NCBI GenBank assembly: GCA_001799845.1
Contig: MGUG01000054.1
Location: forward strand, 127,393 to 191,392
Length of the DNA: 64,000 nucleotides
From: Elusimicrobia bacterium GWC2_64_44
GTDB taxonomy: Bacteria > Elusimicrobiota > Elusimicrobia > Elusimicrobiales > UBA9959
Direction of reading: 5' to 3'
Each line of letters opens with the position of its first letter. Position 1 is the stretch's first letter. A program made the position numbers and the translations under genes. Positions 25,829 through 52,044 of this stretch are shown piece by piece. The notes below the pieces were generated by a model. The model did no database searches. It was not told the DNA's origin and worked only from the letters and a program-made list of their open reading frames with translations.

Positions 25829-25973
25829 CCGTGGGGACGGGCCCGTCAAAACCCGGGCTCGGTGCATTGTCGCTTCGCTCCACACGCACACAGTGCTCGG
25901 CCCTCGCCACTCAGCCCTCGCGCTTACGCAAGCTCGGGCTTCCGTGACGGTTTTGCCGGACCCATCCCCACGG
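25829..25973 (-). repeat. Structured repeat element A (145 bp) with 25-nt terminal inverted arms
   Basis: CCGTGGGGACGGGCCCGTCAAAACC / GGTTTTGCCGGACCCATCCCCACGG pair at 22/25; core GCCCGAGCTTGCGTAAGCGCGAGGGC on minus. Confidence 0.8.
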
Positions 25974-37744: not shown

Positions 37745-37937
37745 GGCGAGTCCTGTCTCGCCGCGAGCGATTTTAGTGCGCAGGGCCAAGGTCCGAAGCG
37801 GACCGCCTATCATTAGGGCGGCGGCGGAGACTGTCCGAGGAGCGCACTGTGTGCGCGACGAGTTCTCCGCCGGCGGAGGACCGCAGGCCCTCTTCTGCCG
37901 CGCACGCTTATGAGCGAGCGGTGAGACAGGACTCGCC
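37745..37937 (+). repeat. Structured repeat element D (193 bp)
   Basis: Terminal arms GGCGAGTCCTGTCTCGCCGC / GCGGTGAGACAGGACTCGCC; core shared in inverted orientation with 50350-50542. Confidence 0.9.
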
Positions 37938-44400: not shown

Positions 44401-45731
44401 TTACGCGCGGCGGCACTGGCGTGGGTAGCCTGACCGGCGTCGTAAAGGGCAACGGCACTTCCGCCATGAGCGCGATGACCGGTACCGCTAACCGCCTTAC
44501 CAAATGGTCCGACGCCAATACCATAGCCAACAGCATCATCTCGGACAACGGCACCACCGTAAGCTTTACGGGCGGGCTCGCGGTAACGGGGACCGGCAGT
44601 TTCACAGGGAACGTTACCATGAACGGCACCGGGAGGATCAATAACCTCGTAGACCCGGCGGCGGACCAGGACGCGGCGACCCGGAAGTACGTGGACGACC
44701 AGGTGCTGGGCGGCGCTTCTCCGGCCTGGAGCAAATACGGCAACACTGTCTCCGGCAGCAACTACATGGGCAGCAGTAACTTCGCCGACGTTATCTTTAA
44801 GACCAATGACACGCGCCGGATGGCCATTACGGCCGGCGGCGGGATACAGCTGGGCACGGGCGTTAACTTGTCCACTTTCACTTCCGCAGGGGTTCTGCAG
44901 CTAGCCGCTTCGCTGGGCGTAGCCTATGGCGGCACAGGGGCCAATACGTTCACCGCCAGCCAGCTGGTGCGCATGAACGCCGGCGGCACCGCGCTCGAGA
45001 GTTCCGGCAAGACGGTCCCGACCGGGACCATAGTGGGACACACCGATACACAGACGCTGACCAATAAGACCATGTCCACCAGTTCTTCCTGGCAGGGAGA
45101 TACGGTAGCGGTGGGCTACGGCGGCACCGGGGCTACTGCGTTCACCAACAGCCAGCTGGTACGCATGAACGCCGGCGGCACCGCGCTCGAGAGCTCCGGC
45201 AAGACGGTCCCGACCGGGACCATAGTGGGACACACCGATACACAGACGCTGACCAACAAGACCATGTCCACCGGCTCGTCCTGGGAGGGCACTGCCGTGG
45301 ATGTGGCTTACGGCGGTACCGGGGCCGCCACCGCCGCAGCAGCGCGCAGCAACCTTGTGGCCGCCAAGAGCGGGGCCAACAGCGACATTACCAGCCTCTC
45401 CGCCCTGAGTACCGCGCTCTCGGTGGGCCAGGGCGGCACCGGCGGCACTGACCAGGCCAGCGCACAGAGCGGCCTTGGGCTGGGGACCATGGCTACGCAA
45501 GGGGCCAACGCCGTAGCCATCACCGGCGGCACGATCTCCAACGTCACCAGCCTGACCTCGGCCGGAGTGCTGCGCCTGTACTCGCGCACGAAGTTGCAGC
45601 TTAACGCCATCACGCCCGCCGCCGTCGGAGAGATCTATTACTGCTCCAACTGCTCGCCGGTCAACGTCATGGTCTCCACCGGCACGGCCCAAGCCAACTT
45701 CGGGGCCATAACCGGCGGTGCGTTTCAGTAA
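41430..45731 (+). CDS. Large secreted surface protein with phage-tail-fiber-like repeats
   Basis: Signal peptide; 'GTLNYQGRL'; repeated 'YGGTGA...', 'GGTGATTLAGIVKGNGTAAM' modules. Confidence 0.85.
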   Translation: MKKTILAACAALLLPLSAWAGDVAPGSVPGTLNYQGRLERDNAPITGPIHLYFRVYNHATANNTGGGLCGAVAQPCLWQSPEITVQAAQGIFSADLTPPLSVLSGGIKLYLEVQVESDVLQPREPLNSVAYALLAKKLEDGASVSVTTLTALNNVMLSTAAGAYLTVGTDAQSSAARVTVDGSVKILNGSLIFANGTSMNTAGVGSASNIASVSDADILADSLAGNTAASGDVLFRKASAVFMRITNSGKAGIGPTFTVDSGLNPPGGGTGVAPLLDVDGQFYVGNEGIYDRDDSEVNVKEDLVVEGGKVSGYGSTPATLANISLGETPGLITFNVGAAEKMRIHNTNSFVGIGLAAPTAMLHVLGDVRSNAGVRGGAVSVGTYAGDWTGYDNELRAQAARHLLLQQTNSYNVGIGTDAPKEKLHVRGSVRSDYGLIAATAAFSGDVRVNGTFTANSGQGNRVYLSTTTVYGDLIVTGGIGSLAGIPAYLASTQTFTGLSAFQNQVVVSSDILTLSRLGAGVSDFDFAGTKYLQVGDNKPAFANDNAMAYLVGGANADAKLNFYRGAAELGRIETQTTAYGTGLAQVLNGQTKVFTDAVYHHIQNSAVWISTGYRSTPAIFVSSFMGNVGMGTAVMDPNWRLTVDGNIRLSGALSNALIFADGTSLNTASALGSATNLSSNGDAVVQSNADLSGGGDVVLRAGALDGLILNTGGNVGIGTMFPVAKLNVRSGDLVIGAPYNPYSGDSSEDLVVAGNIAFDGEMVQRSALPVYLSKLVVSNDVYLSTTVGTRTGIGNVAPGYTLDVTGDINTSASLRTGGTARISNTGTVGSGGANATWDGVTINVNRGGTGAATFTDGGILFGNGTGAIGATAVLANGQLLIGDGTQEPTAATLTGTANQVIVTNGAGSIALSLPQNIHTTADPSFDSISVGSATLATALTVPNGGTGATTLAGIVKGNGTAAMTAVTGTLGYITYWSDANTIAAEQYASVTRGGTGVGSLTGVVKGNGTSAMSAMTGTANRLTKWSDANTIANSIISDNGTTVSFTGGLAVTGTGSFTGNVTMNGTGRINNLVDPAADQDAATRKYVDDQVLGGASPAWSKYGNTVSGSNYMGSSNFADVIFKTNDTRRMAITAGGGIQLGTGVNLSTFTSAGVLQLAASLGVAYGGTGANTFTASQLVRMNAGGTALESSGKTVPTGTIVGHTDTQTLTNKTMSTSSSWQGDTVAVGYGGTGATAFTNSQLVRMNAGGTALESSGKTVPTGTIVGHTDTQTLTNKTMSTGSSWEGTAVDVAYGGTGAATAAAARSNLVAAKSGANSDITSLSALSTALSVGQGGTGGTDQASAQSGLGLGTMATQGANAVAITGGTISNVTSLTSAGVLRLYSRTKLQLNAITPAAVGEIYYCSNCSPVNVMVSTGTAQANFGAITGGAFQ
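44940..45310 (+). repeat. 192-bp tandem duplication within the surface-protein gene
   Basis: Near-identical 'cagctggtNcgcatgaacgccggcggcaccgcgctcgagag...' starting at 44961 and 45153. Confidence 0.88.
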
Positions 45732-50349: not shown

Positions 50350-50542
50350 CGCTCGACCGGGCCCTCCGCTCGCTCATAAGCGGCCGTGGCAGAAGAGGGC
50401 CTGCGGTCCTCCGCCGGCAAAGAACTCGTCGCGCACACAGTGCGCTCCTCAAACATTCTTTGCCGCCGCCTTAATGATAGGCGGTCCGCTCCGGACCTTG
50501 GCCCTACGGCCTAAAATCGCTCACGGAGGGCCCGGTCGAGCG
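50350..50542 (-). repeat. Structured repeat element E (193 bp), inverted relative to element D
   Basis: Perfect arms CGCTCGACCGGGCCCTCCG / CGGAGGGCCCGGTCGAGCG; core homologous to element D. Confidence 0.9.
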
Positions 50543-51923: not shown

Positions 51924-52044
51924 ACCGCAGGGGGTAGGGTTAGCAAAACCCTCATGAGGCCCGAGCTTGCGTAAGCGCGAGGGCCGAATGCGGAGTGAGC
52001 GCACGGTGTGCGCGAACGCGTTTTGCGTTCCTACCCCCTGCGGT
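51924..52044 (+). repeat. Structured repeat element C (121 bp)
   Basis: Perfect arms ACCGCAGGGGGTAGG / CCTACCCCCTGCGGT; core CCCGAGCTTGCGTAAGCGCGAGGGC on plus. Confidence 0.85.

Follow-up and report, generated by a model that had tools for sequence, protein, structure and literature searches.

A ~190-bp family of folded, covarying dispersed repeats in one family of Elusimicrobia bacteria

The window, that is the whole 64,000-nucleotide stretch of DNA that was analysed, includes two related intergenic elements, named D and E. The question that they raise is whether they represent structured RNAs serving the host or copies of a mobile element. As an earlier sequence-only reading had it, the elements are of equal length (193 bp each) and lie on opposite strands; they are 87% identical across 179 nt. 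The terminal arms quoted for D and E were both found, and they are self-complementary and differ between the elements around a common core. The features are listed below.

37745 to 37937, plus strand: element D, whole, 193 bp
37745 to 37764, plus strand: 5' arm of P1 in D, sequence locus-specific
37765 to 37917, plus strand: core of D (GAGCGATTTTAG ... CTTATGAGCGA), homogenised between copies within a genome
37776 to 37781, plus strand: 5' strand of P2 in D, GTGCGC, partner 37900-37905
37782 to 37787, plus strand: 5' strand of P2b in D, AGGGCC, partner 37886-37891
37790 to 37794, plus strand: 5' strand of P3 in D, GGTCC, partner 37878-37882 and not the local GGACC
37803 to 37821, plus strand: P4 hairpin of D, loop TATCATTA conserved
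37822 to 37829, plus strand: 5' strand of P5 in D, partner 37865-37872
37837 to 37861, plus strand: P6 hairpin of D with tandem G-A pairs (GAG-GA-GCGCAC-TGT-GTGCGC-GA-CGA)
37918 to 37937, plus strand: 3' arm of P1 in D
50350 to 50542, minus strand: complete element E (193 bp), lying 3' of tgt and 5' of yajC, at a site that is empty in most genus-mates

Eighteen matches, one of them partial and D and E among them, were found in this genome (G000), and a core match is present in 20 of the 32 genomes of the genus, G000 counted. A covariance-model search of the genome and its relatives had been proposed; the model based on the RNAalifold consensus structure (R1) was replaced by one based on a hand-checked structure (R2), which recovered the repeat in 33 of 59 genomes from the taxonomic family of the host, representing 7 of 13 genera, and gave no match in any sampled Elusimicrobiota genome outside that family, the large searches being run with stricter filters at the cost of weak matches. 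The highest copy number was that of G043 (27 matches at E <= 1e-4), and genus g11 harbors a remote subtype with similar P5 and P6 in which the TATCATTA loop is absent. D, E and copies from other genera all scored below the gathering threshold of any Rfam family, hence the alternative of a known Rfam family fails. The element matched no known IS or MITE, PLSDB held no match that would indicate plasmid carriage, a search of IMG/VR for phage carriage with one exact core pattern gave no hit, and no description of this Elusimicrobia repeat was found in the literature searched. D and E are members of a previously uncatalogued ~190-bp non-coding repeat family of one family of Elusimicrobia bacteria.

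Some copies share an insertion of 23 bp (GATGGAGCGCAGCGACAGGTCTTC type) on the 3' side of P6, which at some loci is missing from the orthologs; the carriers are L139, L141, L143 and L144 in G000, L091, L093 and L103 in G024, and L127 in G019. Where two elements lie close together in other genera, which is so in five cases, they are always in minus/plus order, by chance or possibly as a composite unit, and four of the pairs flank genes (for a DUF2130 protein, nucleotidyltransferases and uncharacterised proteins):

L267: 1271-3121
L268: 1273-2543
L269: 1311-2871
L270: 1319-3495
L271: 1545-2026

The window also includes, at 44919-45302, a 192-bp direct tandem duplication whose units are 88% identical.

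The fold was analysed on an alignment of 76 complete copies, on which a 58-pair structure was counted. It consists of a closing stem, P1, a stack of P2, P2b and P3, and a three-way junction bearing P4 (loop TATCATTA) and P5/P6. In this alignment 95.5% of cells are paired, 42 of the 58 pairs show double-sided changes and the covariation score is 0.436; none of 500 shuffles reached the paired fraction, the double-sided count or the covariation score. When partners were shifted by 1-3 columns the score fell below 0.08, a control that is somewhat in favor of the structure since this was derived from the same sequences as were counted. D itself has a folding energy of -123.9 kcal/mol, compared to -88.5 in shuffles (z = -7.4). 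Double-sided changes were found at all 20 arm pairs of P1, and P2 (GGGCGC/GCGCCC), P2b, P3, P4 and P5 covary as well. The inner-helix covariation first noticed between D and E, in GTGCGC/GCGCAC (P2) and GGCGGAGA/TCTCCGCC (P5), thus extends over the 76 copies. The same is true of the hairpin described as CCGCCT-ATCATTA-(A/G)GGCGG, which is P4 (CCGCC-TATCATTA-GGCGG) and at one of whose pairs the copies are distributed as CG 46, GC 21, AU 8 and UA 1.

Two other hairpins of the sequence-only reading fared less well. The local hairpin GGTCCGnAGCGGACC pairs in 79.7% of cells, about the level of the shuffles, and was rejected as a conserved pairing: its GGTCC pairs instead with a distant GGACC to form P3, where 96.8% of cells pair and all five pairs show double-sided changes. 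In the hairpin GCGCAC-TGT-GTGCGC the inner part, GCAC-TGT-GTGC, is nearly invariant, but the outer part is variable and a tandem G-A pair slides there. That reading's broader proposal, selection on structure, finds support, as the covariation is far beyond the shuffle and slide controls and wobble pairs are biased to one strand.

The bias to one strand was found in several places. When P1 is read on the plus strand of the core there are 77 G-T pairs and 17 A-C mismatches, and with arms registered singly the genus shows a ratio of 55:25 and the other genera one of 26:7 (p = 0.001 in both cases). At the inner end of P1 a tandem G-A faces a tandem G-A in 54 to 61 of the 76 copies per column pair. 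Tandem G-A is also found at the base of P6 and, within P6, at a place that shifts by one or two positions from variant to variant; in a set of 32 copies all cells at the sliding position are Watson-Crick or G-A. On the opposite strand the equivalent of G-A is a C-T mismatch, which is unstable. The G-T excess and the recurrence of tandem G-A on the plus strand therefore point to the folded plus strand, either as RNA or as single-stranded DNA, as the form that is probably under selection.

The copies are intergenic, and no conserved flanking sequence was found beyond the arms. The ends are paired in nearly every copy (median 18-19 bp), and the sequence of the arms is only weakly conserved, with a weak consensus across copies. 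Orthologous sites with and without the element were compared. Between tgt and yajC only G000 and G024 have the element, which is absent from the other readable orthologous sites; in G006 an unrelated long palindrome containing GGGGGACGCTGCTTAGTTTTTGAGTTGTTTG follows tgt (L155). The D site is occupied in G000, G006, G011 and G003, with apparent remnants in G004 and G024, and in many other genomes its two genes lie close together with no element between them. A second type of repeat, CTCGCGCTTACGCAAGCTCGG, is seemingly also present at the D site of G004. Matches to joined flanks identified more empty sites in G024, G006, G003 and G011. These empty orthologous sites show past insertion or loss. 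No target-site duplication was detected (direct-repeat length 0.71, versus 1.00 in shuffled pairs), and such duplications may have decayed with the age of the insertions. The short flanks compared showed no GC-skew preference for the leading or lagging strand. An origin of the arms from a pre-existing hairpin or an inverted target duplication was rejected, as the empty tgt-yajC orthologs show no such palindrome by eye; together with the weak arm consensus, this indicates that the arms are part of the element.

Arms and core have different histories. In 34 orthologous pairs with enough paralogs, arm identity is 0.722 between orthologs and 0.528 between paralogs within a genome, whereas core identity is reversed, 0.882 between orthologs and 0.911 between paralogs (p = 0.004). 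The arms track the locus, and the cores evolve in concert inside each genome. Alleles that mark a species recur at several loci. Allele CTCTATGAGC is carried by 8 of the 9 copies that G003 and G011 have together, and by no other genome with at least two copies, the P5 allele GGCCGAGA by 10 of the 12 in G004 and G006 combined and by 1 of 13 in G024, and P2 GGCC is restricted to G000 and G024. The arms of D are 95% identical to those of its G006 ortholog, the core of which has the G006 allele. Among ortholog pairs with both flanks matching, the core is inverted in 14 and in the same orientation in 30; these pairs are mutually non-independent, and all genomes compared are draft MAGs, in which mis-joined repeat copies could imitate some core swaps or inversions. 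Several of the inverted pairs retain an arm identity of 0.70-0.80; in others, D versus its G003 counterpart included, the arms are so diverged that the elements may have been inserted independently.

The sequence-only reading named an ncRNA and a structured DNA element as alternatives. Mixed orientation, the lack of conserved flanks and insertion polymorphism are not what an ordinary cis-regulatory RNA would be expected to show, and they speak for a mobile, MITE-like element. The reading to which we give about an even chance takes D and E as copies of a MITE-like dispersed element of ~190 bp that is non-coding, non-autonomous and restricted to its lineage, and whose folded plus strand is recognised in trans. 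A trans-acting protein would bind the folded plus strand, as RNA or single-stranded DNA, and would have spread the copies; the pattern of identities suggests that gene conversion among copies then holds the cores alike, and that of orientations that recombination or template switching over the ~20-bp inverted arms may flip them. The requirement on the arms would be mainly pairing, so that they drift with compensation, and the core would have to retain its sequence too. Several observations weigh against the MITE-like reading. Target-site duplications were not detected, old orthologous copies keep the fold, for which a dead MITE would need conversion or a function, and a mobilising enzyme was not found. 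The number of Y1 transposases does not follow copy number: in G056 there are 22 copies and Y1_Tnp is missing, and other genomes have Y1_Tnp and no copies. A RAYT was rejected as the mobilising enzyme because the two numbers do not vary together and the RAYT gene that was looked at has a different palindrome, GGGGACAG, on its flanks. Reverse transcription or retron-type mobilisation was rejected because no RVT_1 match was found in the G000 assembly, which is ~90% complete.

The RAYT (Y1) gene, at G000:C15:30132, is located between GGGGACAG/CTGTCCCC palindromes. A second family of palindromic repeats, of the CTCGCGCTTACGCAAGCTCGG type with GGGGACAG ends, is apparently present in the window at 25903-25942 and 51956-51995.

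The main rival to the MITE-like reading, which we consider possible but on the unlikely side, is a set of multi-copy trans-acting structured RNAs, for example protein-binding ones, that have a host function and are homogenised as rRNA genes are. Strong covariation, G-T bias and tandem G-A on one strand, maintenance of the fold over 7 genera and retention of old copies at orthologous sites are what such RNAs would show. However, with no conserved sequence outside the arms the copies have no common upstream promoter, their orientation is mixed, 12 of the 32 genus-mates have no copies and many sites are empty.

The element could instead be an ordinary palindromic MITE with a fold that is not selected, its matched changes arising mainly through template switching that corrects one arm to match its partner, without selection. 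We think this improbable. Changes in the inner helices are frequently double transversions with wobble intermediates absent, and cores flip between arms, so the arms interact; yet correction of this kind sits poorly with a wobble excess specific to one strand, with tandem G-A mismatches that are retained, even sliding, and not corrected, and with P3 and P5, which are covarying long-range inner helices. There is a similarly small chance that the family represents a new class of structured mobile element of bacteria. Its folded core, of ~150 nt, would be recognised in single-stranded form, and a dedicated enzyme would swap it among, and flip it inside, palindromic arms that differ from locus to locus.

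A cis-acting RNA at gene ends, be it a terminator, an attenuator or a structure that stabilises mRNA, is very improbable: many copies do lie near gene ends, with 24 convergent and 8 divergent sites, and a stem this stable would be expected to affect read-through RNA, but codirectional gene pairs contain the element 20 times in sense and 23 times in antisense orientation (all counts approximate, from simple ORF calls), D is antisense to both adjoining genes, a terminator-like T run is absent and sites are not kept across the genus. A function in read-through RNA was dismissed as there is no orientation bias relative to genes.

These elements add a strongly covarying structured family, absent from Rfam and found in a single family of a phylum that has hardly been cultured. 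With their locus-bound arms and genome-homogenised, invertible cores, they allow both concerted evolution and inversion mediated by palindromes to be measured in bacteria, and their conserved fold could serve as bait for the protein that recognises it.

MITEs have been described as non-coding, dispersed, intergenic sequences of <500 bp with inverted-repeat ends and foldable transcripts (PMC10969869). The element is likewise 193 bp long, non-coding and multi-copy (18 in G000, 27 in G043), with terminal inverted repeats, and it does not show the flanking target-site duplication of MITEs. It resembles the ERIC/IRU, RUP and Correia MITEs in being short, non-coding, dispersed and intergenic, with inverted-repeat ends and transcripts that would fold; it differs from them in its G+C-rich sequence, in ends that are not sequence-conserved within a genome, in a multi-branched covarying fold, in the conversion and inversion of its core, and in that neither a target duplication nor a parent IS was found; among the copies read there was no larger relative. 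REP/REPIN elements with their RAYT transposases are non-autonomous and extragenic, fold as single strands and are possibly moved in trans (PMC3116915), and these properties are shared, including possible mobilisation in trans; the new element, on the other hand, is ~190 bp long, has a three-way junction and is not associated with a RAYT (Y1). Small flip-flop inversions are reported from plastid hairpins, where related species have either orientation of the stretch enclosed by inverted repeats of 18-19 bp (PMC6342102). The sequence between the inverted repeats occurs in both orientations here too, but while the plastid loops measure 5-9 bp and are not repeats themselves, what is found in both orientations in these bacteria is the ~150-bp core of a dispersed repeat.
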